Positions 6,569-28,425 of a stretch of 37,427 nucleotides of DNA are shown here, one piece after another. The notes beneath the pieces are model-generated. The model saw nothing but the letters and a program-made list of their open reading frames with translations. It was not told where the DNA came from and made no database searches. This DNA comes from a virus: the IMG/VR virus record IMGVR_UViG_3300036770_003673, positions 1-37,427 of that record. The stretch is one strand, 5' to 3'. Both the position numbers and the translations under genes were made by a program. Numbering within the stretch: position 1 is the first letter of the stretch; every line of letters begins with the position of its first letter.

Positions 6569-6949
6569 ATGGCAACATACAAAGGTTTTAGTACGATTAA
6601 TCGAGCTAGAAAGTTTCAGCTCACTGACTTTGAGTTAGTCAAGCAGGACCTTTATAATCATTTTCGCATACGTAGAGGCGAAAAGCTGATGAATCCAGAT
6701 TTCGGCACCATAATATGGGACAGTATTATGGAACCATTTACACAGGCTTTGAAAGACGCTATCGGAGATGATGTGCGTCGCATAGCAGCATACGATCCTA
6801 GGATCAGTGTGCGTAATATTAATATTACAGAATTCACCGACGGAATCAGATTAGAACTAGACTTAGTCTATGTTCCTACCAACCAGGTTGATCGATTACT
6901 GTTTAATTTTGAACGGCAATTAAATCAAAATCGCCGAACAGCACAGTAA
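6569..6949 (+). CDS. 25: Baseplate wedge protein gp25-like
   Basis: At 126 residues this matches the usual gp25 size (132 in T4). It has the family core: a DFELVKQDLYNHFRIRRGEK segment, the motif LMNPDFGTIIWDSIMEPFT, then a helix and a closing beta-hairpin (ISVRNINITEFTDGIRLELD). gp25 belongs to the gpW/gp25 lysozyme-like fold group and is a structural part of the inner wedge ring that helps nucleate the sheath. The spike gene stops 15 bases upstream. AAGG (6552-6555) lies 13 bases before the ATG, which is long for a ribosome site, so initiation may rely partly on upstream translation. Confidence 0.93.
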   Translation: MATYKGFSTINRARKFQLTDFELVKQDLYNHFRIRRGEKLMNPDFGTIIWDSIMEPFTQALKDAIGDDVRRIAAYDPRISVRNINITEFTDGIRLELDLVYVPTNQVDRLLFNFERQLNQNRRTAQ

Positions 6950-10909: not shown

Positions 10910-13900
10910 ATGGCTGTTAACCGACGAACTATTAATTTTTTACCACAGGTTTTTCAAACTGATACCAATAAAAAGTTTCTTGGTAGTACACTGGATCAAC
11001 TTATCAGTGAACCAGACTTAAAGAAAATTAATGGATTCATTGGTCGGAAACTCAGTCCCTCATTACGAGGCAATGATAACTACATCGTTGAAACCAACTC
11101 AGACCGTCAAAACTATCAACTCGAGCCAACCATTGTGGCACGCGATAGCAATCAAGATGTTGAGTTTGTAGCTACTTATTCTGATATTATTAATAAAATC
11201 AGTTTTTATGGTGGCATTACTAATGATCATAGCAGATTATTTGAATCTGAATACTATAACTTTGACCCACACATAGACCTTGACAAGTTTGTAAACTATA
11301 GTCAGTACCATTGGGTACCAGAAGGTCCAGAAGTTGTTACTATTAGCTCTCGGGCACCGATTCAAGGTAATACTATTACTTTTACTCGTTCGGGTAATAA
11401 TTATCTTACTAATCAAACTGGATCTGTTGCTAATCCTACGATTTACATTGTTCGTGGACAATCATATACTTTTACTATTAGTCATACACCCACACAAGGT
11501 AATCTTTGGATTCAAAGTGAACCTGGTCGAAGTGGAGTTAAACAATATGCAGTTGGTATTAGTTCAAGATCTGTATTAGGTATTAGCAATAATGGAATTA
11601 ACACTGGTAATGTATCGATCACAATTCCTGACAGGACCAGCCAAGACCAATATTTAGATTTAGATTTATTTGAAGCTGTTGACTACGCACTGTCGGGATC
11701 CTTTACTGCCGTTGATGGAGCAACTTGGACTAGCTCATTGAACATAGGTGGTCAAACTTTTTTTGCTGACAATCGTTATGTAATTTTTACTACTAGCAGT
11801 ACATCAGCAGCTGACTGGACCAACAGGTCGTCTACAGTGGTTGATAGCACACAAAGACGTGGAATATGGAGAACTAACCTAGTTCAATTACCCGGCGATG
11901 CTGCACCAAAGATTCATTTAACATTTGTTAAAAGTATTCCTGCGAATAGTCGTGTCGCTGTTAAGTCTGGTAGTCGAGAAGGTTTTGAGTACTTTGTAAA
12001 CAGCACCGGACTGTTTGAGCAAATACCAGACCTAACAGCTCCGCTAGATATTCTCTATTATCAAAATAGTTTGAATGAATCCTGCCGCGGAGAGATTCGT
12101 ATACTTGATCACGGAAGAATATTAGACATTGATCGTGACATTGTAGGCAACGAAAGTTATATTACACCACAAGGACAAGTTCTGCGTGATGGAATGTTGC
12201 TGTATTTTGATGATACTGTATTTCCAGAACAATACAGACAGCGATACTTTTATGTTGAAGGCGTAGGCCAACGCATAGTATTAGTACCACAAGACCAGTT
12301 GCCTGCTATTGAAACAATCAGTGTTGATTATATCACAATCAACCGTTCAAGTATAGATCGTAATCCGTGGTCTAGATGTAATCGTTGGTTTCATGCAGAC
12401 CTATTAGGTCATTTAAGTGAGCAGCGTTTAATTGAGACCAGAGCCAAAAGACCTATCATTGAGTTTGAGCCTAATCTACAATTATATAATTATGGTAGAG
12501 TTAACTTAGCCATTGTGGATTATCTGTTTGATGAAAACACTTATATTAACGTCAATGGCGTACAAACAGTGTTTACTAATGCCAGCACAGTAATTAATAA
12601 TGCTACATATGAATCATTAGAAAACACATTTACTTTTCCTTTGAAACAAGGACAATTGTGTATATTTGCCAATGATGTAAGTAACACTGTAAAACAACGT
12701 GTGTATAGGCTTGATTATGTTGACCAGTCTGGGTCATCATCGTTTAACGGGACTATTGCCGGTGAAGCAACCGGGGTTCAAGGGTCATATAAAATAATTT
12801 CGGGTAACGCTGATAATACCACTAGTTTTGCAATTGAGCTAGGAATCGGTTATGACTTATTCACTAAGACTAATGTTTACTTAGGAAGAGTCAGCGATAT
12901 AAACGGTAATTATGAGTTGACACTCGATCGTCCTTTAACAGTTAATCTAGTTAAAGCCGATGGAATAAAATTTATTAAACCTAGGGCTTTATTAACGGTG
13001 CTTCATACTGCTGAATATTATCATAGTGTTAGTGTTCGCAGTGGACTAAACCAAGGGGAATCGTTTTATTGGTATCAAAAAATCTATAGTGATCCTGCTA
13101 GTACTGTTAGTGCTCCAATTATTACATTGGTTGACCATTGGCGTCGAGCCCAGACTAAAAATCAAACCAACCAAGAACCGCTGTTTGATATCATCTTAGA
13201 TAATACTGCCCAATTTACAGGAACTAACCTACAGGTCAAAAACATCAGCCTTGGGCATGAACTTTTCTTTGAAAAGAATGTGTCCTTTACTAATGCTAAC
13301 CAGACCTTCCGCGACAGTAAGTTTGCAGGTACGCCTTTATTTTCTTACACTCGTGGTAATACGCCAATTGATCCTTATTTGAATTTTAATTTAGAATATA
13401 TCAGCAGTGCTGATTTCATTGGAGACATTAACTTTACTAATAACTATAACTCTGATATGTTTGAATATCGCGGGTTAGATTCTAATAGAAATATCAGTTT
13501 AGTTAGTGGTAAAATTGATGTAGGTTATATTAGACGTAATCGCGGCTTAGACGACAACGAGTTTGATAAATTCACAATGTGGAGTTCGGTTGGAATCACT
13601 GAACGTAATAGGTTCATTGCTGACACCACCAAACAATATCAACATATTTCTGCTGTATACGATGGTATTACTAGTTACTTTAATATTGACACCGAACCAG
13701 CACAAGAACATTCTGAAGCAGAATCGGAACCTAACATTAAGGTTTTTGTAAACAATCGTTTCGTTCCAAGACTGAGATTAGGAATGTCTCCTGCCTATCA
13801 ATTCGAAAGAGTCGGTGTGGCTAATGCAGTAAAGATTGATCAACGTATATTATCATTCAATGACAACATAGATATTTTAGTTTATTCTAAGAAAGCCGGT

Positions 13901-16900
13901 AGAAAAGGTTATTACCAAATCCCTACTAATTTAGAATTCAATCCTAATAACTCAGAGATTGGTTCAATGAGTATGGGACAGTTACGCAATCATCTTAATG
14001 TAATTGGTCAGAATATTAAAGGACTAATTGGTGATATTAACGGTAATAGTAATATTACTAATTTTGATTATGCACGTCGACCTGGTACTATTTTACAGCA
14101 TAGTTCTTTATTTGCACTAGCTCCTTTGTTTTTAGTTGGACAACAAGCTAACTTTATTGATGCATTGGATGCTGCCCGCAGAGATTATACTAGATTCAAA
14201 CACAAGTTTTTAGAATTGTCTGGCACTCTCAACGGTATAAGCTCCGACAATATTGTAGACAGTGTAGACAGAATTATCGATGCAATCAATTCTAGTAAAA
14301 ATCCATTGAATTTTCCTTACTACTACAGTGATATGCTGCCAGTGGGTAGCAAATATGTTACTAAAACTTTTACAATAAAAAGTACAATCAGCAGGTCGTT
14401 TATTGCTGATCGAGACCTGAGTACAGTTCGTGGACTATTGGTTTATCTAAACGGCGTACAGCTAACTAAAGTTTTCGATTACAATATTTCTGGATTCACA
14501 ATTGAATTAACAAACTCAGTTACTATTGCAGTCAACGACAAATTGATTTTACGGGAGTATGCAAATACAGACGGCTGTTATGTTCCAGAAACTCCAACAA
14601 AATTAGGGTTATATCCTAAGTTTCAACCATTGAAATTTTTAGACAATACTTATAGAGATGACATATATGTTATTCAAGGTCACGACGGTAGTTTAACACC
14701 AGCATTCAACGACTTTAGAGATGATTTGTTATTAGAATTTGAACGCCGTATATACAATAATATTAAGATTGATTACAATCCAGAAAACTTTGATATTTGG
14801 TCAAATATACCAGGTAAATTCCGAAACACTGATTACTCGCTGACAGAATTTAATCGAGTACTTAACACAGAATTCCTACGCTGGGCCGGGAACAATCATT
14901 TAGACTATACACTAAATGACACATACTTGGCTAATGATCAATTTAGTTACAATTATAATAGGGCATCAGACATTGATGGTCAATCAGTGCCTGGCTACTG
15001 GAGAGGAATTTACAAATATTATTTTGACACTGATCGTCCTCATAGTCATCCTTGGGAAATGTTTGGTTATACACTTAAACCAACATGGTGGGATAATACC
15101 TATAGTTGGACCGATACAGCAAAACGTAGCTTATTAATTAGTGCTGTACGTTCAGGGCAACCTAGCCCGGTTATTGCCAATGGACTGCAATTATATTACG
15201 ATTGGGGTAATACAGATTGTTATAGCCAAGGCAATACATTTCTTAATTTGGTTGATTCTACTAGAAACAACGGTTATCTAAAAAATAATATCAAATATAG
15301 CTCCGAGCATGGTGGTATCATGCGTACCGGCGGATACAACAGTGGAATTTCGAATTCAGTTGGTGATCGTATTGATATCGAAACCTATGCTGGTGGCACA
15401 GATAGATTTGGCAATGGAGATTTTACCATTGGATTCTGGGTCAAAAAACTCGAAGGCCCTGCTGGTAGTAAATTATTAAGTACAGGCAGTGCCGGGGCAT
15501 TGTCTGGCAATGACGATAAGTGTATTTGGCAATTCTATATCAGTGACCAAGGATTTTACTGGTGGAATTCGTCAGGCGGCAGTACTAACAATATTCAAGC
15601 ACTAGGATCATTTGTTGAAACAGGTGTTTGGCAGTTTGTTACAGTTACCTATCAGTATAACAATTCTGGCAATAATACAGTGCGTTGTTATATTAACGGC
15701 AAACAAAAACTAACGGCCACAGTCAGCACCGGAACTCACGATTATGTTGATCGCACAGCAGAAAATTCGTTACAGTATACATTAGGGGGTGGATATAGCA
15801 GCAGTTGTATGACCACTAACACCAAAGCTGAATTTGGTCCCTTTATGCTGTACAATCGTACTTTAACTGCGGAGGAAGTAGATTTTAATTATCGAGCGAG
15901 CAGTTCTAGATTTGAATTTGGTGTTAATACCAGACGCAGTGATTTATATCGTCGACCACGCTTCAGTGAAATTGTGCCAGTTGGCACAGATGGTAATCTA
16001 ATACCACCAATGGGCTTGATAGTACAAAATTTCAACACCCAAACCTTTAGTAGAAGTTTTAGTGTAGGGGATCACGGTCCGGTTGAGTCAGCATGGCGAA
16101 GAACTAGTGATTATGTGTTTGCTTTGCAGAAGGCCATGGCTTTGCTTAAGCCTGCACAGTATTTTGGCAGACTATTTGATATTAGTTCGTATGGTCCACA
16201 AAGCATAGGTGGCGATCGACAATTTGCGAATTTTGCTAGTCATAAAAGACACAACATAAATCAAATATCAGTCTTAGGTACGCCCACTGATACAGATGTA
16301 GCTCGACCAATTGGATACATTAATTGGGTATATTCGTATCTAATTGGGTTAGGAATTGATCCAGTAACTAAACTCACCGGACTACTTCAAAACACCGACG
16401 TTAATCTTGTCCATAAATTAGGGGGGTTCACTGACAAGCAGTATATACAAGTACTAGCTGAGCAGTTTAGTCCAGGCAGTGTCAGCGAAAGTGTAATTAT
16501 CCCAGATGAAAATTATCAAATACAACTAAACAAAAGTGTTCCGGTTGATCGCGCTGTGTACAGTGCTGTAATTGTAGAAAAGAGCAATCAAGGTTGGACT
16601 GTGACCGGATATAATCTTCGCAATCCTTTCTTTACAATCATTCCTAGTGAAACATCTGGTACATACTATAACATTTCTGTTCTTGACACCGCTGCTACGA
16701 TCTATCAGCAATTTAGATCCGAAAAAATTATTATTCCTTATGGATTTGAATTTACTAGTCGCCAACAAGTTGTAGACTTTTTAGTTAGCTATCAGCGTTT
16801 CCTAGTAGCACAGGGTTTTGTGTTCGACAACTATGACAATACATTAGCGGTAGTTCGTGATTGGATTCTAAGTGCTAAAGAATTTTTAACCTGGAGCCTT

Positions 16901-19900
16901 CAAGGCTGGGGACCTGGCAATGTACTAGTATTAAGTCCAGTGGTAGACAAGCTCAACATTGTTAGCACCGATGCAGTAGTAGATAGTTTGGTTAACAGTG
17001 TCTATGATAGCCAGCTGATGGGACCAAATTTCAATGTCCTTAAGAAAAATGACTTCAGTGTGCTGCGTGACAATTCTAGAACCAGCATTTACACTATCAG
17101 TGGTCAAACAGTGGCATTTGCTGATTTGAGCCTGGTTCAGTATGAACACGTAATGATATTTGACAATGTCACAGTGTTTAACGACATACTATATAAACCT
17201 GAGTTAGGTAATAGACAGTATAGATTAAAACTAGTAGGTAGCAAAACTGATAACTGGGATGGGCAACTTACACCACCTGGTTTTTTACATGTAGATAGTC
17301 GTTATCAAGCCTGGCAACCAAATCAAGAATATCGCAAAGGTGACAGTGTTGAATACAGAAATCGTGTGTATGTGGCCATGCAAAACATTTCGCCCGATGT
17401 CAACTTTAATTTTAATTCTTGGAAAGAATCGGATACCATAGTAGAGTCTGGATTAGTTCCTAACTTTGCATTGTTAGCCAGCAGATTAACCGAATTCTAT
17501 AATGTTGACAGCGAAACTCTTGATGAAAATCTAGCACGCTTTAGCAGTGGATTAATTGGGTATCGTACCAGAACATATCTTAGTGAACTTGGGTTAGATG
17601 AAACCAGTCAGCTCAAGTTTTACCAAGGCATGATCAAGCACAAAGGTACATTAAACGCCATGGAAGCATTGATCAAAGGCGACTTTGATGATATCAGTAG
17701 TTCCATACAGCTCTATGAAGAATGGGGAGCACGACTAGGTGAATATGGCGCCATTGACGCCAACCCAGAATTAACTATGATGATTCGTGAGAGTGTGTTT
17801 AACAGAAACCCAACTAGCTTTGAGTTTTTGAATTACAATCAAACTCCTGATTCCTCTAGTATTCCTGCTGTATATCCAAATCAACTGTTAAACATGAGTG
17901 CAGATTTTGATCCGCATTTGTTCTTAAACAGAAACAGTCAAAATCATAAATTAGTTGAGGATTTAGACCTACGCATTAAAACACGACTAGCCAAGATTGA
18001 ATTGTTTGGTGATAATCTCATATGCGGTACACAGCCTAGCGAATTAGTAGCCTATAGTATCAGTGTAGTAGAAAACCTGGGATATGATATTGATGTACTA
18101 GGATCTACTACTTATGGTGTGCAACTATTAGACGATAACGGGTTAATATTTGATAGTCGTAGTGTAGGAGATGCTATAACTATCGCTGCTAAATCAACTC
18201 TCAGCGTTGAAGATCTCGAATACGTTATTGAATCGCCAACCGAATTAGATCGCCAGTTGCAGGCTGACAACGAAATTGATTTCACTGTAAGCAGTGCATA
18301 CCCAGGACAGCCTTTAACTATTTCTGTTCGTAGTAAACAGTTAATTGAAAAATTAGAGTACTCAATTGAAAGTCCTACACAAGAAGATGTATTCGCTGAT
18401 CGTGTAGTGGATATTCGAGTACTAGATCGAGTACGTGCAGGTCAAGAAATCGGCTTCAGTGTAATGAGTATTAAAACTACTGAAACACTGTACTGGAGTA
18501 TCGAAACACCAAACGAAGGCGAAAGTTATACATTTACCTATCTTGAAAGTCCCGACGGTTGTAAAGTAAAAGAAGATGGCAACATTGATCGGGTAGGGCA
18601 ACGTGTCGACGAGCCAGTGGATTATTTGTTGTATTCGGCCCTGACCGATGATAGTTTAATTTCCGTCACTACAAGATCAGTAGGCGGCAGCACCAGCAGT
18701 GAATTATTTGCTGGCACTGATGGTGCCAATGGCCCATGGCCCGATGACATCGACGCTGACATCGTAATTATCAATCACGGGCTAAACGATGCTAAACAAC
18801 GAATTGAAGTAGACTATTATAAAAATACTTTAGAAAACATTCGTGCCAATTTGAACAGAAAGACTGCGATAATCTGGGTACTACCACCTCCGGTGAATAT
18901 GAGTTTACCTACTGAGAATGGTTTAATTGATCCTAGAACTAATTGGAACAAAACCGGTGTACTAGAACAATACAGAAACGCCATGCGTGAAGTAGCAGTA
19001 TTAGGCGGAGATTATGTAGTTGATCCTGCCGAAATCCCAAATTGGCAAGATTACTTGGATGTAGATCCAATGATACCTAACCAGCATGGATATCGTGCAT
19101 TGGTCAGGGAGTTACTAGCACCAGCAGTGCGTACTGCTATTAGAGATCGCAATCAGGGCAACCAAGAAAGCTACGAGAATGATGTTATCACTGCTGGCTA
19201 TGTTAAGAACGATGAAGTACACAAACAAATTTTTGACATTTCAAAGTACTCATTTACTTCAATTGATCTCAGCAAATTTGAAACTGGTTATAAAATATGG
19301 TTAGCTAAAGATTTTAATCATGAGTGGCAAGTCTACAGACTACTACAAAACGAGTTTGTGGTACAAAGTATGCAGCCAGATCTAGACAATAAGATCACAG
19401 TGAATCTATGGAAAGGGCCGCCCTTAGACACTACTGTAACCGGAACCAGGGATGGTTTTACTGCTGACGATGTTGCTGCTATTGTAAATTCTTGGTATCT
19501 TAAGTACGCTTACAGAAATGGTGAACAAGGCGGGCTAGATTACTGGGTAGGAGAATACATCAATCGTGGCATTGAACTAAACGACCTAGAAGTTATTTTT
19601 AGAAATATTGTCTATCAATTTATCAATAGTGGACAGGAATTAAGTCAACAATACCATGGCATAGTGGAAGGTGACATCATTGCTATTCGTGGCGTAGCTG
19701 ATGGATTAGACGGTGTTTATCGTGTGTTATACAGCGACAACTCTACCGTGACTATACAAGGAACACAAGAACAAAATAATTTCCTAAACAACAGTGATAC
19801 CTACGGACTCAATAGCACAATCTTTGATTTCCAACCTATGCGTTTTGATGACATGAATCATCTAAGAAAAACCAAGCCTAAGAGAGCTTGGATGGCTGAT

Positions 19901-22900
19901 GATTTATTGTATGTAGACGATGCCGGTTTAGGTACATGGAGAGTATATAGTCCAGAAATCGAAACCTATGCTAATACTACTCAAACAGTAACTAATGTGC
20001 GTTATGAAAATACCTATAGTATTAGAATAGAAAATTGTGATGCTGGTCCTATGCCTACCACAGTGGCCGGCATTCGTGATGGAGTTACTGCCGACGATGT
20101 AGCCAGTATTGTGAATACATTCTATCAAAAGTATCTACTAAGAAATGCTACACAGGTGGAACTTGATCGGTTTGTAAGTCGTGTGTTTACCGATTTAACT
20201 AAAGAACTAAATCAACATATAGAAAATATTGAAAACGAAATACGTATCAGTGACGAAGCACAACAACTAGTCAGTAGTGGCATGCTTATTCCGCAGATTG
20301 ACACTGGTGAAAGTATAAACTTTACTATTCTCAGCAGCGAAGATACCGAGGACTTATACTGGACCATTGAAGCTATCGAGGACGAAACGTCGGTTAGACC
20401 TGACAATACTTCAGGAAATATTGCTGAAGTATTCTTAGATACAGTTGCAGTAATTAATCCAGTGTACAAGTTCAATCGCGTAAGAGACTATGAGTTACAG
20501 GTTGATGTCGACAGCATTGGTAATGCCTATATCTATAATAACAAAACCAAACATATTTTAGCACGTTTAGACATTTACGATCCAGTTAAAGGAAGATTAT
20601 TAGGTGCTTCGCAACAAGATCTTGATTATACAACCAGCATAGATCCTGCACAGTATAATGCAGCTAGTGCAGTTAATCCTAGCCCATATGACCCATACTA
20701 TGGCTGGAGAGAAGATTATGTAGGTACCTACTGGTGGAATCTTGACAATTGCAGATTTGGTTTTTATGAGCAAGGTAGTCTTGCTTATAGAGAACAGCAC
20801 TGGGGAGAATTATTTCCTGGCAGCAAAGTAGAAGTATATGAATGGATCGAAACAGATGTACTACCAAGCATATATGTTCAACAAGGACGAGATGGCGTTC
20901 CTCTCTATCCTGATGATAGTAATTATACCAGTGTAGTACGTGTAGATCCGGCCAGTAACGGATTTACTACTCGTTATTTCTATTGGGTACGTGCTAAAAC
21001 AGAAAAAACTAATCCTGCTAAACGTCTTAGTGTAGCAGCCATTGAAAAATTTATTGAAAATCCTTTCTCGCAGAATATACCATTTATGGTTGCTCTCAAG
21101 GATAACGCAGTAAGTTTGTTTAATGTTGGTCCTTATGTACAAGGTGATGATAGTGTGCTATACATTAGTAGTAAACGCACTCTCACCGAAAACATTATTC
21201 ATACCGATTTTGGTATCATACAAGAAGGTAATCCCGATACTCCAATTCCTGAAAGACTTGAACAAAAAATTATAGACAGTATCTGTGGCATTGACTCTGA
21301 AGGTAACTTAGTTCCTGACGCAGCCTTGCCTTACACACGCAGGTATGGTATAGAAAATTACCCGCGCCAAAGTGTGATAGTAGATCGTATAGAGGCTAGA
21401 GAAAACGTAATCAAATACATTAACTCGGTGTTGATAAAGCATCCTGTAGCTGACAGGCTAACCGATCTACCAAACGATTACCTAGATAATTTTTATGCAG
21501 TTGACAGACCAGCTGCTAATTCTTACACTGATCAAACGACAAGTTTTGCTGATTTGGCAGCTATAGTAGCCGGGCCAGGTAAACGTGTATTGGTTAATTA
21601 TGATGAAACCATGGGCGACCATTGGTCTATTTACGAAATTTCGATAATTGCTACTAATAGAACAAGTTACATTTTTGATTATGCAGATTTTCAAAAGAGT
21701 TATGCATTTATATTACCTATACAAGTAACTACTAATCCTGCCACCTATACCTATTACGGATTTACTTTGGTTAAAAGACAGGGCTTTGACACAAGAAGAT
21801 ATTGGAGCTTTGTTGATTGGTATGCTGAAGGATTTAGTTCTAGGACTAAACCAAATTACATTGTACCAAATATTACCGAAGTTCATAAATTAGATCTACA
21901 ACATGGTGACATTGTTAAAGTTTATCAACTAAGTGTGTATAGTGAGGTTGCGGCCGCATACAACGGTGACTTCGAAAGTACTGGAGATTTTGAAATTTAT
22001 CAGTACCAGAGTGTAGATGGAATCCTACGTCCAAAATTGATTGGTCTATCCAATGGAACTATACAAATTGGCAAGGAGTTCTATCGTAACTGGGGCTTCG
22101 ATACTGAGCGTTTTGATTCCTTGGGGTTCGATTATAATCTTGATTACGAGTTACGTTGGATCATGAAAGGACTCAAAGAAGACTTACTCGTCAATGATCT
22201 AGAAGTAGAATACAATAAAATCATGTACTATATTATAGATTATATACTCACTGAGCAAAAGTACATTGATTGGTTCTTTAAGACTAGCTTTATTAGCGTA
22301 AAACAATCTATCGAAGGATTTAAGCAGCAACCAGGATTTATTAAAGATCGTCAAAAGAACATCGAAGAATACATTGCCGAGGTTAAACCATATAGAACAA
22401 AGCTTCGTCAATTTATATTAAATTACAGTGAGGTTGATGTATATTCGACTAACATAACCGACTTTGATGTGCCAGCATATTGGGACACTAGACTACAAAC
22501 TTTCAGGCCTCCTAATGGTGACATGGTTTACGATCAACAATTGTTAATGTCTGGTCAATATCAAGATTGGTTACGTAACTATCATTACAGAATTGAACAA
22601 GTAGATATCTACAGCACTGGATATGGATATCGTGGATCTACAGAAACCACATTAGTAGCACCGGAAATAATTTTTAATAGACTTGATTCGGCAATTGGCG
22701 AGGATGCAAAAGCTGAAGTAACACTAGATCCTAGAACTTTCGGCATAGATAATCTTGTACTCACTCAACGCGGAAATCGTTACTTAATGGCACCCGAGGT
22801 ACAAGTAATTGGTAACGGAGGTACTATTGCTAGTGATACAAGAACATTCGACTATGTGGTTACTTCAATTGGGTTGTCTGACACATCGGCTTCGGGAAAA

Positions 22901-25900
22901 ACATATAATACATTTACCCTGCGTAATACCACTGAAAATACGGTATTATGGTCAAGTCCTGCTCGTAGTTATACTATGCATCGTATCCGACGTGTTGACG
23001 GACGGCATGTGTTCACTAGTCAGTATGATGTTTTCGGTAGCATAGATGAAGCTAAACGATTAGCAGTTGATTTAGATAATACCACCAGCGACTATATTGT
23101 AGTAGTGCATACCTACGATGAACCGCAGACTAATAGGTTCTACGGTGGACTAGCTGAAAGCATGTATCGTTGTGGCGCAAGTCGTGCAGTATTTGGTAGC
23201 AGCAATTTCCGTTATCGTAGTGCCTATGTCTTAGTGGGTATTCCTGAATCAGGTGAAGGCAACGGAATTGAAAACTATGCTGGATTAACAAATAACAGTA
23301 CCACTGCATATGCTAGTGTACGTTTTGCACTACGTGGTGGTTATTTGGTCCCACTGGAAGCAGATCCAAGATTATACAGTATCGGAACTGCTATAAGTTT
23401 CCCAACTAATCCTGCACCAAACCAAACCTACACCATGGGTAATAAATCTTGGATTTGGAATGGAACTGGGTGGAATGTAACACGACGTCCAGTGGGATTC
23501 CTAGACGGAGATGTTGCCCCAAGGCGTGCTCAATTAATCGCCAGACTAGAAAATTATACCACACGCAAAATTAAAACCACTATACGTTTTGATAGAGTTT
23601 GGTATACCAGCAGTGTTGTAAATTGGGTAGCTAATGTAGCATACAACCCCGGTACACTATTGAGTTATAATGGTCGTGGTTATCTAGTAGTTAGCAAAAT
23701 GCCAGCAAATTCTAAATTCCAATTTGGTTATGTACAAGAATTAAACAGTGGTACATTTAACAATGCCAATGATAGAATTATGGCTTACTATGTGCCTGAC
23801 ACCGAAACTAACTTAGGCATATCTAAAGACCTAGAACAATTAGTTCCTGGTATCGGTGGTGCCCCAGCCTATGATTTCAGCAGCGACGTGGGACTAGACA
23901 CAATATTAATTGGCGATACTTTTGGTAGCACTGAAGGATTAAATGCCGGGAATATCATACTCAGTGGCGGACGATTTGTTGATGCATTGTTTAGTCATGC
24001 TCCAGAAGAATTAGTACCGGGCAGGACTTATGAAACAGTTGACATTCGTGTAGTTACTTCTAATAGCACTGATACTGGATTTAGATATTTTAAGAATATG
24101 AATGATGTAGTTACAGGCACAGCATTTACTCCGTCAACAGTAACTACATTGGCACTACCATTGTTAGTTACAGATACTAATATCACAGTGACCAATGGCA
24201 GTATCTTAACTATACCTAATCCTGGTGCAGTATTGCCTGGGATCGTCTACATTAATGGAGAGCGTATAAGTTATTATACTAAGGTTGGTAATGTACTAGG
24301 GCAAATTCGTAGAGGCATTGATGGAACCGGTATCGCTCAAACGCATCCATCTGGATCTAGAGTTGAGGATGTTAGCCAGGCTCGTGCTAGTACACTGTAT
24401 CTAACAGACTACACTATACCAGTACCTCCAGTGGTCCCTACACCTGCAGCCATCACAGAGCCGCCGATTCCGGTACCAATACCAACCCCGGTACCAGTGC
24501 CAGTGCCTACACCAATACCAACTCCGGTACCAGTGCCAGTGCCTACACCAACACCTATCCCGCCATTGGTAGTGCCAACATTTACCCCAGGAACATGTCA
24601 GGATGGATACAAATTGGTTTCAAATACATACACAACTTCAACAACAATTACGATTCCACTAGGAGTAACTGCTTTAACGCTAGTAGGAAAAGGATCAGAC
24701 GGAACGCAAATCAACCCACAGTGGGAAAGCTCTTGGACTACAGGCCTGCCAGGTTTTGGTCCGGTCTTTGCCAGAATTGAGCCAACTGCGCCTTCGTTTA
24801 TTACTAGCCTAGATATTGAAAATTCAGCAACTACTTACTATAATAGTATACCATCTTTACGTATCAATGATGGAGGTTTAAGTTGGTTAACCAAAGTGTA
24901 TGTAGCAGGAAGGTTATATGAATTCTATTATGCTGCTAGAGTAAGATTGAAAATCGGTGGCGTCAAAGCCAAATTGGGCAATGGTTGGGGTAGTACTTTT
25001 GCTACCCCAATCAGCGAGCCAAAATTATATGCCATTGATGGCACACAGTACGAAGAATACCGTGGCGGTACCAATGGTGTTGCTGCTGGATTTGACAATA
25101 CAGTGATATTCTACGGTGGACAAAATGGTAATCCTGCACCATTTATGCGTACCACTGTACAAGTAACACCGCAAGCTACTTATAGCTTAAGCATTCCGCC
25201 TGGTGGCAGTATCAGAGTAGAATACTGTGAGCCAGTTAGTTTGCCAGTGGTATCCGTCCAACCCAATGGAGACGCTGTGTTTACTACACCCGGCGCCTTT
25301 ACATGGACTTGTCCTGATGATGTTACAAAGATCAGTGTATTAGCTGTTGGCGGAGGTGGTGGCGGTGGTTATGCTGCTGAAGGTCAGGGCGGCGGGGGCG
25401 GCGGAGGCGGCGGCCTAGGTTGGATCAACAATTATACAGTGGTTCCCGGTACTACATATACCGTAGTAGTAGGCAATGGTGGATCAGCTGGTTACAACGT
25501 CGACGGTGGCAACGGCGGAGATAGTTACTTTATATCAACTGCAACTGTAGCCGGATTCGGGGGACGCGGCGGAGTAAAAAGTATTAACCTAACAGCTGGA
25601 GCCGGACAAGGTGGCTTGTTTGCTGGACAAGGCGGTGGGGCTGGTGGTAACGGAGGCCAAGAAGTACTAGGCTACGGCACTGGTGGCGGCGGAGCTGGTG
25701 GTTATGCTGGAGCCGGTGGTGCTGGAGGTAACTTTGGTAAAGCCGGCTCTGATGGATTCGGGGGAGGTGGTGGTGGCGGTGCCGGTGAGTACAGCGCAGC
25801 CGGACCCAGCGCTGGTGGTGGCGGTGGTGTAGGGTTATATGGACAAGACATCAATGGCGCCGGCGGAAAATACAATCCAAATCCAACAGAAAGAAGAGGT

Positions 25901-26107
25901 CTAGGTGGTAGCAATGGACAGAATGCTAGCATTGGCGAAGGTAAACTCAGCCAGGGCGGACTATATGGCGGTGGTGGTTCTGGTGGCAGTGCTGCTACAA
26001 TTAAGATGGGCGGCGAAGGTGGTTCTGGTGCTGTAAGAATTTTATGGGGCCCAAGTAGAAAGTTTCCTGGTACTGATGTAAATACCAGCGAAGGAACAAG
26101 CTCTTAA
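10910..26107 (+). CDS. Giant 5065-residue baseplate/fibre structural protein
   Basis: One frame is open for 15.2 kb. The start follows TAACGGA closely. Domains I can see, by residue: 1-165 N-terminal module (FLPQVFQTDTNKKFLGSTLD) known from structural proteins of aquatic T4-like phages; 168-245 cupredoxin-like; 1425-1662 LamG-type lectin fold; about 1838 GFTDKQYIQVLAEQF; 2133-2173 CBM5/12-like; about 2234 KFYQGMIKHKGTLNAMEAL, weakly like T4 gp7; 2426-2538 three short beta repeats (LEYxIESP type); 2540-2740 SGNH-hydrolase-like; 2843-2914 and 3050-3117 DUF4214-like pair; a fourth beta repeat near 3145; 4024-4125 ILEI/PANDER-like; about 4238 second CBM-like; 4503-4560 Pro linker; 4803-5058 glycine-rich C terminus ending GAVRILWGPSRKF. 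Its place after gp6 and its ends suggest wedge attachment at the N terminus and host contact at the C terminus. gp7 equivalence is only a guess. Confidence 0.85.
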   Translation: MAVNRRTINFLPQVFQTDTNKKFLGSTLDQLISEPDLKKINGFIGRKLSPSLRGNDNYIVETNSDRQNYQLEPTIVARDSNQDVEFVATYSDIINKISFYGGITNDHSRLFESEYYNFDPHIDLDKFVNYSQYHWVPEGPEVVTISSRAPIQGNTITFTRSGNNYLTNQTGSVANPTIYIVRGQSYTFTISHTPTQGNLWIQSEPGRSGVKQYAVGISSRSVLGISNNGINTGNVSITIPDRTSQDQYLDLDLFEAVDYALSGSFTAVDGATWTSSLNIGGQTFFADNRYVIFTTSSTSAADWTNRSSTVVDSTQRRGIWRTNLVQLPGDAAPKIHLTFVKSIPANSRVAVKSGSREGFEYFVNSTGLFEQIPDLTAPLDILYYQNSLNESCRGEIRILDHGRILDIDRDIVGNESYITPQGQVLRDGMLLYFDDTVFPEQYRQRYFYVEGVGQRIVLVPQDQLPAIETISVDYITINRSSIDRNPWSRCNRWFHADLLGHLSEQRLIETRAKRPIIEFEPNLQLYNYGRVNLAIVDYLFDENTYINVNGVQTVFTNASTVINNATYESLENTFTFPLKQGQLCIFANDVSNTVKQRVYRLDYVDQSGSSSFNGTIAGEATGVQGSYKIISGNADNTTSFAIELGIGYDLFTKTNVYLGRVSDINGNYELTLDRPLTVNLVKADGIKFIKPRALLTVLHTAEYYHSVSVRSGLNQGESFYWYQKIYSDPASTVSAPIITLVDHWRRAQTKNQTNQEPLFDIILDNTAQFTGTNLQVKNISLGHELFFEKNVSFTNANQTFRDSKFAGTPLFSYTRGNTPIDPYLNFNLEYISSADFIGDINFTNNYNSDMFEYRGLDSNRNISLVSGKIDVGYIRRNRGLDDNEFDKFTMWSSVGITERNRFIADTTKQYQHISAVYDGITSYFNIDTEPAQEHSEAESEPNIKVFVNNRFVPRLRLGMSPAYQFERVGVANAVKIDQRILSFNDNIDILVYSKKAGRKGYYQIPTNLEFNPNNSEIGSMSMGQLRNHLNVIGQNIKGLIGDINGNSNITNFDYARRPGTILQHSSLFALAPLFLVGQQANFIDALDAARRDYTRFKHKFLELSGTLNGISSDNIVDSVDRIIDAINSSKNPLNFPYYYSDMLPVGSKYVTKTFTIKSTISRSFIADRDLSTVRGLLVYLNGVQLTKVFDYNISGFTIELTNSVTIAVNDKLILREYANTDGCYVPETPTKLGLYPKFQPLKFLDNTYRDDIYVIQGHDGSLTPAFNDFRDDLLLEFERRIYNNIKIDYNPENFDIWSNIPGKFRNTDYSLTEFNRVLNTEFLRWAGNNHLDYTLNDTYLANDQFSYNYNRASDIDGQSVPGYWRGIYKYYFDTDRPHSHPWEMFGYTLKPTWWDNTYSWTDTAKRSLLISAVRSGQPSPVIANGLQLYYDWGNTDCYSQGNTFLNLVDSTRNNGYLKNNIKYSSEHGGIMRTGGYNSGISNSVGDRIDIETYAGGTDRFGNGDFTIGFWVKKLEGPAGSKLLSTGSAGALSGNDDKCIWQFYISDQGFYWWNSSGGSTNNIQALGSFVETGVWQFVTVTYQYNNSGNNTVRCYINGKQKLTATVSTGTHDYVDRTAENSLQYTLGGGYSSSCMTTNTKAEFGPFMLYNRTLTAEEVDFNYRASSSRFEFGVNTRRSDLYRRPRFSEIVPVGTDGNLIPPMGLIVQNFNTQTFSRSFSVGDHGPVESAWRRTSDYVFALQKAMALLKPAQYFGRLFDISSYGPQSIGGDRQFANFASHKRHNINQISVLGTPTDTDVARPIGYINWVYSYLIGLGIDPVTKLTGLLQNTDVNLVHKLGGFTDKQYIQVLAEQFSPGSVSESVIIPDENYQIQLNKSVPVDRAVYSAVIVEKSNQGWTVTGYNLRNPFFTIIPSETSGTYYNISVLDTAATIYQQFRSEKIIIPYGFEFTSRQQVVDFLVSYQRFLVAQGFVFDNYDNTLAVVRDWILSAKEFLTWSLQGWGPGNVLVLSPVVDKLNIVSTDAVVDSLVNSVYDSQLMGPNFNVLKKNDFSVLRDNSRTSIYTISGQTVAFADLSLVQYEHVMIFDNVTVFNDILYKPELGNRQYRLKLVGSKTDNWDGQLTPPGFLHVDSRYQAWQPNQEYRKGDSVEYRNRVYVAMQNISPDVNFNFNSWKESDTIVESGLVPNFALLASRLTEFYNVDSETLDENLARFSSGLIGYRTRTYLSELGLDETSQLKFYQGMIKHKGTLNAMEALIKGDFDDISSSIQLYEEWGARLGEYGAIDANPELTMMIRESVFNRNPTSFEFLNYNQTPDSSSIPAVYPNQLLNMSADFDPHLFLNRNSQNHKLVEDLDLRIKTRLAKIELFGDNLICGTQPSELVAYSISVVENLGYDIDVLGSTTYGVQLLDDNGLIFDSRSVGDAITIAAKSTLSVEDLEYVIESPTELDRQLQADNEIDFTVSSAYPGQPLTISVRSKQLIEKLEYSIESPTQEDVFADRVVDIRVLDRVRAGQEIGFSVMSIKTTETLYWSIETPNEGESYTFTYLESPDGCKVKEDGNIDRVGQRVDEPVDYLLYSALTDDSLISVTTRSVGGSTSSELFAGTDGANGPWPDDIDADIVIINHGLNDAKQRIEVDYYKNTLENIRANLNRKTAIIWVLPPPVNMSLPTENGLIDPRTNWNKTGVLEQYRNAMREVAVLGGDYVVDPAEIPNWQDYLDVDPMIPNQHGYRALVRELLAPAVRTAIRDRNQGNQESYENDVITAGYVKNDEVHKQIFDISKYSFTSIDLSKFETGYKIWLAKDFNHEWQVYRLLQNEFVVQSMQPDLDNKITVNLWKGPPLDTTVTGTRDGFTADDVAAIVNSWYLKYAYRNGEQGGLDYWVGEYINRGIELNDLEVIFRNIVYQFINSGQELSQQYHGIVEGDIIAIRGVADGLDGVYRVLYSDNSTVTIQGTQEQNNFLNNSDTYGLNSTIFDFQPMRFDDMNHLRKTKPKRAWMADDLLYVDDAGLGTWRVYSPEIETYANTTQTVTNVRYENTYSIRIENCDAGPMPTTVAGIRDGVTADDVASIVNTFYQKYLLRNATQVELDRFVSRVFTDLTKELNQHIENIENEIRISDEAQQLVSSGMLIPQIDTGESINFTILSSEDTEDLYWTIEAIEDETSVRPDNTSGNIAEVFLDTVAVINPVYKFNRVRDYELQVDVDSIGNAYIYNNKTKHILARLDIYDPVKGRLLGASQQDLDYTTSIDPAQYNAASAVNPSPYDPYYGWREDYVGTYWWNLDNCRFGFYEQGSLAYREQHWGELFPGSKVEVYEWIETDVLPSIYVQQGRDGVPLYPDDSNYTSVVRVDPASNGFTTRYFYWVRAKTEKTNPAKRLSVAAIEKFIENPFSQNIPFMVALKDNAVSLFNVGPYVQGDDSVLYISSKRTLTENIIHTDFGIIQEGNPDTPIPERLEQKIIDSICGIDSEGNLVPDAALPYTRRYGIENYPRQSVIVDRIEARENVIKYINSVLIKHPVADRLTDLPNDYLDNFYAVDRPAANSYTDQTTSFADLAAIVAGPGKRVLVNYDETMGDHWSIYEISIIATNRTSYIFDYADFQKSYAFILPIQVTTNPATYTYYGFTLVKRQGFDTRRYWSFVDWYAEGFSSRTKPNYIVPNITEVHKLDLQHGDIVKVYQLSVYSEVAAAYNGDFESTGDFEIYQYQSVDGILRPKLIGLSNGTIQIGKEFYRNWGFDTERFDSLGFDYNLDYELRWIMKGLKEDLLVNDLEVEYNKIMYYIIDYILTEQKYIDWFFKTSFISVKQSIEGFKQQPGFIKDRQKNIEEYIAEVKPYRTKLRQFILNYSEVDVYSTNITDFDVPAYWDTRLQTFRPPNGDMVYDQQLLMSGQYQDWLRNYHYRIEQVDIYSTGYGYRGSTETTLVAPEIIFNRLDSAIGEDAKAEVTLDPRTFGIDNLVLTQRGNRYLMAPEVQVIGNGGTIASDTRTFDYVVTSIGLSDTSASGKTYNTFTLRNTTENTVLWSSPARSYTMHRIRRVDGRHVFTSQYDVFGSIDEAKRLAVDLDNTTSDYIVVVHTYDEPQTNRFYGGLAESMYRCGASRAVFGSSNFRYRSAYVLVGIPESGEGNGIENYAGLTNNSTTAYASVRFALRGGYLVPLEADPRLYSIGTAISFPTNPAPNQTYTMGNKSWIWNGTGWNVTRRPVGFLDGDVAPRRAQLIARLENYTTRKIKTTIRFDRVWYTSSVVNWVANVAYNPGTLLSYNGRGYLVVSKMPANSKFQFGYVQELNSGTFNNANDRIMAYYVPDTETNLGISKDLEQLVPGIGGAPAYDFSSDVGLDTILIGDTFGSTEGLNAGNIILSGGRFVDALFSHAPEELVPGRTYETVDIRVVTSNSTDTGFRYFKNMNDVVTGTAFTPSTVTTLALPLLVTDTNITVTNGSILTIPNPGAVLPGIVYINGERISYYTKVGNVLGQIRRGIDGTGIAQTHPSGSRVEDVSQARASTLYLTDYTIPVPPVVPTPAAITEPPIPVPIPTPVPVPVPTPIPTPVPVPVPTPTPIPPLVVPTFTPGTCQDGYKLVSNTYTTSTTITIPLGVTALTLVGKGSDGTQINPQWESSWTTGLPGFGPVFARIEPTAPSFITSLDIENSATTYYNSIPSLRINDGGLSWLTKVYVAGRLYEFYYAARVRLKIGGVKAKLGNGWGSTFATPISEPKLYAIDGTQYEEYRGGTNGVAAGFDNTVIFYGGQNGNPAPFMRTTVQVTPQATYSLSIPPGGSIRVEYCEPVSLPVVSVQPNGDAVFTTPGAFTWTCPDDVTKISVLAVGGGGGGGYAAEGQGGGGGGGGGLGWINNYTVVPGTTYTVVVGNGGSAGYNVDGGNGGDSYFISTATVAGFGGRGGVKSINLTAGAGQGGLFAGQGGGAGGNGGQEVLGYGTGGGGAGGYAGAGGAGGNFGKAGSDGFGGGGGGGAGEYSAAGPSAGGGGGVGLYGQDINGAGGKYNPNPTERRGLGGSNGQNASIGEGKLSQGGLYGGGGSGGSAATIKMGGEGGSGAVRILWGPSRKFPGTDVNTSEGTSS
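24488..24551 (+). repeat. Proline-linker DNA repeat, 36-bp period
   Basis: CCGGTACCAGTGCCAGTGCC and the eight bases that follow occur at 24488 and again at 24524, coding PVPVPVPTP-type sequence. They form the core of a Pro-rich hinge (about 24418-24590) between the body of the giant protein and its C-terminal beta and glycine-rich domains. Confidence 0.8.
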
Positions 26108-26124: not shown

Positions 26125-26283
26125 ATGATAAATAACGATAGTCCGAATAAAATGCAAGAAGAACTAGAACCGACTCCCCCAGAAAATCATGAACCCGATG
26201 ACAGTGGTGGTATTTTTGTTCAAGGCTTTTTGAAAATATTTGATCCTGAAACTGGAAAGATAATAACACAAGGTCGTGCCTAA
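26125..26283 (+). CDS. Small 52-residue ORF sharing a motif with the next protein
   Basis: This ORF opens 17 bases after the giant gene. CAGGGG (26111-26116) lies 8 bases before its ATG, and it stops two bases before the next ATG, an operon-like fit. The product starts MINNDSPNKMQEELEPTPPE, is acidic and proline-rich in its first half, and ends GFLKIFDPETGKIITQGRA. The GFLKIFDPET part is repeated at the start of the following protein, from nearly identical DNA. I see no known family. It may be a small virion or assembly peptide, or the front of a decayed paralogue. A late-promoter motif overlaps its start, so the stretch could also serve as a leader for the next gene. Confidence 0.5.
   Translation: MINNDSPNKMQEELEPTPPENHEPDDSGGIFVQGFLKIFDPETGKIITQGRA
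26127..26134 (+). promoter_or_regulatory. Candidate late promoter inside the small ORF start
   Basis: GATAAATA matches NATAAATA exactly. It overlaps the start codon of the 52-residue ORF, so transcripts from it could not carry that start; they would give the gene at 26286 a leader of about 145 bases. Chance occurrence in AT-rich DNA is possible. Confidence 0.35.
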
Positions 26284-26341
26284 CCATGGAAAATTCACAG
26301 TATAAGATTGATGGTTTTTTGAAAATATTTGATCCTGAAAC
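26224..26341 (+). repeat. 29-bp direct repeat across two adjacent genes
   Basis: Bases 26224-26252 and 26313-26341 differ at one position only, a silent C/T (GGC/GGT). Both read GFLKIFDPET in frame, one near the end of the small ORF and one near the start of the next protein. The period is 89 bp, which is not a multiple of three; each copy is in its own gene's frame. Confidence 0.9.
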
Positions 26342-27236
26342 CCTAGAAGTGTTTGTTGATAAACACAATGCCATTCATTATGAAAATATCAGTTTCGCGC
26401 TAGCTAATTCATTGGCTAATGCTAAAGAGCATTTTGTCAGCGAGATGCATTTTGGACGCGGTGGTACTAGTATTAATAGCTCGGGAGTAATCAGTTACCT
26501 ACCACCTAATGTTAATACACAAAGTGCCGATCTTTATAATCCAACTTTTTATAAAGTAGTGGATCGACACAGTATCGATAATCGTGATCCATTGCGTAAT
26601 CATATGAGTGTGCGTCACGTTGCTGGTACTTTTTACAGTGATGTATTAGTAACCTGTTTATTAGACTACGGTGATCCTGGCGGACAACTGCCTTTTGACA
26701 ATGCTACCACACTAGATAATAATTTTGTATTTGATGAGCTTGGATTAAAATCGTACAGTCCAGCCGGACCGGGCAGTGGTAAATTACTGACTCATGTAGT
26801 ATTTCATCCTATACAAAAAAGTTTGAACAGATTAATTCAAATTGATTATACTTTACGTATACAGAGTTTAACAAACCTAACTGCTAGTAGTCTTAGTACG
26901 CTACCTAATTACGATCCTTATATCATGCCAAATTCTGGCACATTAGGTAGTTTCAGCATTGGATTAAATCAGCCATTGCAATTAGCTGTGCGAGGTGGTC
27001 CACCTAACCAGGTTGTAACCATATACAGTACTTTTGTTCCGGCTGCCCCAGGTGACACTGCTACAGGATTTCCTGGTACAGTTACTAGAACACTAGATGT
27101 AAATGGAAACTTTACAGAAACATCTAGAACTTATACAGTGGCCGGCACATACACTTATAGCTTTACATTTCCGTCAAGTACTGCTTACAATTTTGTAGGA
27201 TCAAATGTAAGAACCTATGTACTTACAGTGGCCTAA
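26286..27236 (+). CDS. Conserved T4-like virion structural protein with C-terminal Ig-like domain
   Basis: This 316-residue protein starts MENSQYKIDGFLKIFDPETL and continues VDKHNAIHYENISFALANSL, a pattern I associate with uncharacterised structural proteins of aquatic T4-like phages. The conserved body runs to about residue 200 (HFVSEMHFGRGGTSINSSG, FVFDELGLKSYSP, LLTHVVFHPIQKSLNRLIQI). Residues about 225-316 form an Ig-like module (LQLAVRGGPPNQVVTIYS ... TYTYSFTFPSSTAYN), of the same kind as the repeats in the gene at 34091. Its size and place after gp6 and the giant protein would suit gp8, but I see no motif that proves this. It lies two bases after the small ORF, probably coupled to it, with AAGGTCG (26270-26276) about nine bases before the ATG. 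Confidence 0.7.
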   Translation: MENSQYKIDGFLKIFDPETLEVFVDKHNAIHYENISFALANSLANAKEHFVSEMHFGRGGTSINSSGVISYLPPNVNTQSADLYNPTFYKVVDRHSIDNRDPLRNHMSVRHVAGTFYSDVLVTCLLDYGDPGGQLPFDNATTLDNNFVFDELGLKSYSPAGPGSGKLLTHVVFHPIQKSLNRLIQIDYTLRIQSLTNLTASSLSTLPNYDPYIMPNSGTLGSFSIGLNQPLQLAVRGGPPNQVVTIYSTFVPAAPGDTATGFPGTVTRTLDVNGNFTETSRTYTVAGTYTYSFTFPSSTAYNFVGSNVRTYVLTVA

Positions 27237-27249
27237 CGGAGTTTGACTA

Positions 27250-28425
27250 ATGTATAATATTAATAAAAGCAACGGAGAGTTTTTAGTTGCCATTGAAGAA
27301 GGTACCAGCGACAGTGTAGCAACTAGCTTGACTCTAATAGGTAAAAATTACAGTAACTACGGCGAAGTTCTAAATGAAAATTTAGTACGCATAACTGAAA
27401 ACTTTACTGGGTATAATCCACCAGCTAGCCCGATGAAAGGCCAGTTATGGTATGACGACACTGATAAAATTCTAAAGTTGTGGAATGGCGATACTTGGAC
27501 TGCTGCCGGTAGTGGAGTACAATTAGATCAAGAAAGCACTGCTGTGCATTTTGTTACATTTGTACAAACAGAATATGGTGCACCACCTTTTAAGGTAGCC
27601 GGTAACAAAGGTATTGTGTTTGAGCCTGCCAGTGGTAATATGGGAATTGGCAAAAGTACAAGGCCTACCAGTAAATTAGAAATCAATGGTAATACTGCGT
27701 TTAATCGTGTATTTTCTGCGCCAGTAGGTGGCATCAATGAAACCATTGTGCATTTACACGGCGATGATACCGCCGGCGGTAAGAGTGCCAGACTGGTCAT
27801 TGACAGTTACGGATTCAGGCCAAACGAACGAATTGGTAGTGTGCTACACTTTAGACGTAGCCGTGGAACAAGTGGTAGTCGTAGCGCAGTAATAGGCAAC
27901 GATATCTTAGGTGGTATTGCAGCACACGGTTATGATGGTTCATCATTTAGCGAAATTCAAGGTTATGTTAATTTTCAAGCTGCTGAAAATTGGAGTCAAA
28001 CTGCACACGGCACCAAATTAGAAATTTGGTTGACACAAGCTAAAACATTACTAGCTAGTCGTGTAGTAGAAATTACCAGTTCTGGTGATATCAAAGCTGA
28101 AGGTGATATTGTAGCATATACATCATCGGATATTGATCTTAAAACTGATGTACGTAAAATTACCAATGCACTAAGTAAAGTATTAAGTTTAGATGGTATT
28201 ATATATCGTTGGGACGCTGATAAGACCATTGACAAAGACCTAGATCGTGATCATGCTGGTGTAGTAGCGCAACAAGTTTTGAAGGTACTACCCGAAGCTG
28301 TTATACGTAGAAAAAATGGTTCACTGGCAGTTAACTACGAAATGCTGGTACCTTTGTTAATTGAGTCAATTAAAGAGCTTGAGTCCAAGCTGTCAGGAAT
28401 TGAAGGTACCGGGAAACTAGCGTGA
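27250..28425 (+). CDS. Tail fibre protein with self-cleaving S74 chaperone domain
   Basis: The N-terminal 85 residues (FLVAIEEGTSDSVATSLTLI, GKNYSNYGEVLNENLVRITE, MKGQLWYDDTDKILKLWNG) are a module common at the start of fibre proteins in aquatic T4-like phages. The middle is beta-rich. The last 100 residues form a peptidase S74 intramolecular chaperone: SSDIDLKTDVRKI, GIIYRWD, DHAGVVAQQVLKVLPEAVI, VNYEMLVPLLIESIKELES. The catalytic Ser-Lys pair spaced by five is visible as S293 and K298, so the chain is expected to cut itself just before S293 after trimer folding. CGGAG sits 7-8 bases before the ATG. The stop TGA overlaps the GTG start of the next gene. Confidence 0.85.
   Translation: MYNINKSNGEFLVAIEEGTSDSVATSLTLIGKNYSNYGEVLNENLVRITENFTGYNPPASPMKGQLWYDDTDKILKLWNGDTWTAAGSGVQLDQESTAVHFVTFVQTEYGAPPFKVAGNKGIVFEPASGNMGIGKSTRPTSKLEINGNTAFNRVFSAPVGGINETIVHLHGDDTAGGKSARLVIDSYGFRPNERIGSVLHFRRSRGTSGSRSAVIGNDILGGIAAHGYDGSSFSEIQGYVNFQAAENWSQTAHGTKLEIWLTQAKTLLASRVVEITSSGDIKAEGDIVAYTSSDIDLKTDVRKITNALSKVLSLDGIIYRWDADKTIDKDLDRDHAGVVAQQVLKVLPEAVIRRKNGSLAVNYEMLVPLLIESIKELESKLSGIEGTGKLA

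Follow-up and report, generated by a model that had tools for sequence, protein, structure and literature searches.

What kind of virion component is encoded by a single 15.2-kb virus gene specifying 5065 residues, and what might its domains do? The gene lies in a virus contig of 37,427 nucleotides (the whole stretch analyzed here, referred to as the window), which probably represents part of a larger myovirus genome. Its frame runs from the ATG at 10910 to the stop at 26107 as one ORF without an internal stop codon, exactly as the original prediction described it, and the share of the window, put there at about 40%, was measured as 40.6%. At about 39% GC, an open frame of 5066 codons is far longer than expected by chance. 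The features of the locus are collected in Table 1.

Table 1. Positions of the baseplate genes and of the features of the giant protein in the window
Feature	Residues	Position	Strand	Basis or remark
gp25-like wedge protein		6569..6949	+	PF04965, E 1.1e-8
gp6-like wedge protein	1300 aa	6996..10898	+	phrog_10646, E 4e-277; phrog_219, E 1e-19
Giant structural protein, phrog_10938 family	5065 aa	10910..26107	+	564 kDa (calculated)
N-terminal block	1-160	10910..11389	+	Conserved in 30/30 jumbo giants compared (LP..F.T...KFL...D.L...)
Scaffold block	~410-600	12137..12709	+	Common to distant jumbo phages
Scaffold block	~744-1416	13139..15157	+	BLAST map
Laminin-G/ConA-like domain	1498-1657	15401..15880	+	PF13385, E 2.4e-16
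Scaffold block	~1671-2350	15920..17959	+	In all jumbo relatives
CBM5/12-like motif	2134-2159	17309..17386	+	E 5e-4, below cut-off; part of scaffold
KGT motif, FYQGMIKHKGT	2237-2247	17618..17650	+	Aligned with cyanophage gp7 KGT/KG motif
SGNH/GDSL esterase domain	~2360-2760	17987..19189	+	PF13472, E 7.7e-11, above cut-off; motifs
Asn in place of nucleophile Ser of GDS	2369	18014..18016	+	Compared with active-type relatives
Ile in place of catalytic His of DxxH	2722	19073..19075	+	Compared with active-type relatives
DUF4214-like helical repeat, copy 1	2838-2913	19421..19648	+	Piecewise BLAST
DUF4214-like helical repeat, copy 2	3047-3129	20048..20296	+	Piecewise BLAST
Scaffold block 4	3188-4030	20471..22999	+	Common to all jumbo isolates compared by BLAST
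ILEI-like domain	4025-4111	22982..23242	+	E 2.3e-5, 25.2 bits against Pfam cut-off of 27
Proline-rich linker, tandem 36-nt repeat		24475..24546	+	Before variable C-terminal tip
Glycine-rich tip domain	4792-5045	25283..26044	+	Gly_rich_2, E 5e-12; phrog_4474
phrog_11259 protein		26286..27236	+	Downstream of giant in relatives; gp8 position

The gene 7 slot and its giant occupants

The window locus is a T4-type baseplate operon with the order gp53-hub-gp5-gp25-gp6-giant and a further virion protein upstream. The giant gene lies directly downstream of gp25 and gp6, in the slot that gene 7 occupies in T4, and the gp6-like gene stops 11 nucleotides before it. On the 3' side follow the phrog_11259 protein, a fiber with an S74 chaperone, and large Ig/PA14-type adhesins. 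The proposal that wedge and fiber jobs are merged in one chain is doubtful, because the window has individual genes for gp25, gp6, a gp5-like lysozyme, and gp53, and fiber genes lie downstream. Within the adhesin region, positions 28422-34055 encode a 1877-residue adhesin-like protein in which He_PIG Ig domains and overlapping matches to GLEYA and PA14 were found.

The gp25-gp6-giant order recurs in Atu_ph07, Phosso, PA5oct, GAP32, Vibrio 2.275.O, and XacN1; SCTP-2 departs from it, as its giant has a different upstream neighbor and gp6 lies elsewhere. The phrog_11259 protein is present downstream of the giant in the loci of 17 fetched relatives, and comparison of the window copy with gp8 gave no sequence match. 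A fusion of gp8 into the giant is unsupported, as neither that neighbor matches gp8 nor does block 4 match a solved fold in a PDB fold search. In the Microcystis phage Mel-JY01 (L049, 16869-23281), three separate ORFs of 386, 413, and 1336 aa follow gp6 instead of one giant.

Relatives of the giant in IMG/VR are single ORFs of 3740-5526 aa in independent contigs, some of them cut by contig ends, and those in isolate genomes measure 3341-4555 aa. Three pieces of the giant match PHROG 10938 (E 9e-116, 4e-108, and 5e-67), the label of which reads only "virion structural protein." The jumbo-phage giants of this family (PA5oct gp355, 3857 aa; Atu_ph07 gp180, 4449 aa; GAP32_230, 3341 aa; phAPEC6 gp245, 381.9 kDa; SCTP-2 gp140) are homologous to the window protein across the scaffold blocks, with the same gene order in most. 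The isolate giants differ from it in being shorter, in lacking both a laminin-G domain at this site and the SGNH domain, and in carrying other C-terminal tips. PHROGs files families 10938, 12050, and 11190, all of the baseplate operon, under "head and packaging," which looks like a mislabel.

The arrangement had been presented as exceptional, a view that does not hold: giant proteins at the gp7 position, some above 5000 aa, are already annotated in cyanophages and jumbo phages. The slot is annotated as gp7 in S-SM2 (4156 aa), P-SSM2 (75005-90592, 5195 aa), and P-HM1 (46129-59469, 4446 aa), and the latter two, as well as the S-CREM1 giant (98218-114486, 5422 aa), are annotated as baseplate wedge. 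Because cyanophage gp7 giants of similar length have been annotated, the size of the window protein is not new. As a new and very large addition to the family of giants in the gp7 slot, it is for the most part ordinary. The same slot also holds small proteins, of 874 aa in Mosig, 482 aa in ACP17, and 503 aa in Mendera. A literature search on "giant protein" phrases returned no matches.

We consider it probable that the gene product is to jumbo phages what gp7 is to T4, namely the third chain in the (gp6)2-gp7 wedge of the baseplate. The cyanophage giant gp7 "baseplate wedge initiator" (PHROG 2885) resembles the window protein in its slot after gp25-gp6, its size class, its KGT block, and its possession of inserted domains; it differs in that full-length sequence similarity is absent, its inserts are of other kinds (YHYH), and a recognizable gp8 follows it. 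The motif FYQG.I..KGT is kept in the jumbo giants aligned. When the KGT block was aligned with cyanophage gp7 by hhalign, the two motifs fell in register at E 4e-4, with a weak probability of 35%, and the best of 28 control blocks reached 0.08. The cyanophage block in turn matched T4 gp7 with E 1e-10 to 1e-11 and a probability of 97%. The sequence link of the giant to gp7 is thus suggestive rather than proven.

Other comparisons gave less. T4 gp7 (1032 aa) shares the position after gp6 but differs in having its helical and KG regions within the C-terminal half, and neither the whole protein nor the KGT region gave a significant direct match to it. When full-length profiles were compared, neither T4 gp7 nor cyanophage gp7 yielded anything useful, the short KGT block alone giving a match; the N-terminal block, though conserved among jumbo giants, produced no profile alignment with the cyanophage gp7 N terminus. 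Neither the Pfam gp7 models PF21427, PF21428, and PF21456 nor PF23786 hit the window when E values up to 1 were admitted, and allowing E values up to 10 produced no hit in the 1671-2400 region of 19 members. The confidence of two AlphaFold models was low (mean pLDDT 58 and 66), and PDB fold searches with both returned no match at E <= 0.001 and none identifying a gp7 fold; the matches were short and mostly of chitin-binding type for model 1 and noise for model 2. A BFVD search returned relatives of the giant itself, Atu_ph07 among them.

The missing T4 and Pfam matches, the unalignable N terminus, and the unspecific PHROG label would also suit a baseplate-attached protein that sits in the gp7 slot without being its homologue, such as an unrelated giant scaffold or side fiber, with the wedge core supplied by another gene. 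We judge this reading unlikely, since the giant directly follows gp6 in nearly all relatives seen, the KGT motif aligns in register well beyond its controls, and a second gp7 candidate was not seen beside gp6 in the six loci listed above for gene order.

Selection on the chain and detection of orthologues in virions

The original prediction had inferred selection either as one chain or as a processed polyprotein. Selection on the gene as a unit is borne out by the relatives, which are also single ORFs, and by purifying selection along the whole length: dN/dS was 0.03-0.25 in every segment of the giant in two close pairs (L028 versus L032 and L028 versus L036), with some dS values saturated. 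Between L028 and L036, dS was 0.11 in the C-terminal 1000 codons and exceeded 1 over much of the remaining gene, suggesting that the C-terminal tip may have been exchanged recently by recombination.

Orthologues of the giant are virion proteins in PA5oct, CBB, and phAPEC6, with low mass spectrometric coverage of 7-8%. PA5oct gp355 is recorded as a virion protein by ESI-MS/MS in its genome record, and CBB_236, adjoining gp6, was represented by 21 peptides from the virion (PMC5259590). In phAPEC6, 17 peptides were assigned to gp245 (381.88 kDa), which adjoins the wedge protein gp244 (131.18 kDa) (PMC7247149). The masses we computed for a related Asteriusvirus giant and its gp6, 381.87 and 131.17 kDa, match gp245 and gp244.

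Jumbo phages process virion proteins, and a proline-rich linker precedes the C-terminal tip, so that the giant could be a polyprotein from which wedge, lectin, and tip pieces are released by cleavage after translation. The data neither require such processing nor speak for or against it, and we regard it as very unlikely.

Inserted domains and a probably disarmed esterase

BLAST maps showed that the scaffold blocks of Table 1 are common to the relatives, with variable stretches between them; residues 4210-4490 of the window protein are shared in closer relatives. The family consists of a scaffold conserved across jumbo myoviruses, into which domains have been inserted at distinct sites that differ between lineages. 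The domain chain of the original prediction stood for the most part: the laminin-G/ConA-like, GDSL, and Gly_rich_2 matches lie above their Pfam cut-offs, and the CBM5/12 and ILEI matches fall below theirs. The CBM5/12-like sequence, immediately ahead of the KGT block, nevertheless recurs in 17 of 19 relatives. An NCBIfam search with the giant gave no matches. That first reading had overlooked the pair of DUF4214-like repeats as well as the missing catalytic residues of the esterase.

The SGNH/GDSL domain shares with hydrolases of PF13472 a family-level match and the GxND block III (GLND). It departs from them in that the catalytic Ser and His are both replaced and about 170 aa separate blocks I and II. 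In place of GDS and DxxH, the window has GDN and DPMI (DPMIP). Four relatives (L028, L031, L032, and L036) have GDG and DP.[FY]P, with Gly for Ser and Phe or Tyr for His, and six relatives in the tree retain GDS and DG.HP. In this tree, built from the neighboring scaffold block, the window and the four altered relatives group together with support (96/92) in a clade nested among GDS forms, which fits a single loss of the catalytic residues. Within the clade, the SGNH domain has dN/dS values of 0.07 and 0.17, indicating purifying selection. The window's nearest relatives also carry the domain, whereas L034, L035, and the isolates yielded no sign of it. Loss of both Ser and His across the five-member clade is a new detail.

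The original prediction had counted depolymerase work among the jobs of the chain. Because the catalytic Ser and His that relatives keep are lost, depolymerase or esterase activity of this domain in the window is unlikely; an unusual nucleophile is still conceivable. The stronger version, a multi-enzyme adsorption machine whose active esterase deacetylates host polysaccharide, could draw on the clear detection of the SGNH family and on the GDS and DxxH motifs of close relatives. We hold it to be highly improbable in view of the Asn and Ile in the window and the substitutions at the same positions in all four clade mates.

The laminin-G insertion (~1417-1670) is missing at this site, as an alignment gap, from every other giant compared; L043 carries a laminin-G domain at another site, near residue 4217. 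Searches by tblastn with the laminin-G region and with the C-terminal tip gave no phage isolate match. The presence of a lectin-like domain at this site in the window only is a new detail, and, together with the disarmed esterase, this private insertion is the part worth following.

GC3 is even over the whole gene (0.24-0.34). A GC peak at 25-26 kb (near 25.5 kb) comes from GC1 and GC2 of ~0.65, with GC3 still at 0.33, and is due to glycine codons; the uniform GC3 and the glycine origin of the peak therefore give no indication of a foreign join. The environmental origin of this virus contig could raise the suspicion of a misassembly fusing two genes, but the chance of this is negligible, as GC3 is uniform and more than 10 independent contigs as well as isolate genomes have the same architecture in one frame, support that covers the scaffold, the laminin-G insertion being known from the window contig alone.

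Proposed role at the baseplate rim

If the giant is the gp7 counterpart, its KGT region and its N-terminal block, the latter folded as a helical hairpin, would pair with two copies of gp6 to form the wedge core, each virion holding six copies of the giant. The lectin-like, CBM-like, SGNH, and glycine-rich inserts would stand out from the rim of the baseplate; there they might attach to glycans of the cell surface or the environment or serve as docking points for fibers, and so aid adsorption and the triggering of sheath contraction. In the window's clade, the SGNH domain would then have a role in binding or in structure and not as an esterase. T4 gp7 and its 242-aa orthologue in Vibrio phage XM1 (gp17) are five to twenty times smaller than the window protein. 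The XM1 protein anchors tail spikes by extra regions that are unresolved in its map (PMC10457771), which makes a rim role for the inserts of the giant plausible.

A broader idea, which we advance tentatively as a possibility, is that wedge proteins of the gp7 type serve as open-ended carriers, gathering sugar-binding modules at fixed insertion sites, and that the esterase recruited in this clade was disarmed when both Ser and His were lost, after which purifying selection maintained it in a new binding or structural use at the baseplate rim. Were this so, the gp7 slot, which belongs to the best-conserved core of the contractile-tail baseplate, would tolerate about twentyfold growth (from 242 aa in XM1 to more than 5500 aa among relatives of the window protein) and would be a carrier of host-interaction domains outside the tail fibers. 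The "head and packaging" label of PHROG 10938 would be corrected, and dozens of giant "hypothetical" or "structural" ORFs of jumbo phages would be explained. The paired loss of Ser and His would offer a clean example, open to testing, of how an enzyme became a pseudoenzyme within a virion.

Directly 3' of the giant, positions 26125-26283 hold a 52-aa ORF (MINNDSPNKM...GFLKIFDPETGKIITQGRA). Its end repeats GFLKIFDPET, the start motif of the next gene, as part of a direct repeat (26219-26252 and 26308-26341). The same small ORF follows the giant in L034, and ORFs of 41-42 aa are found there in PA5oct and Atu_ph07.
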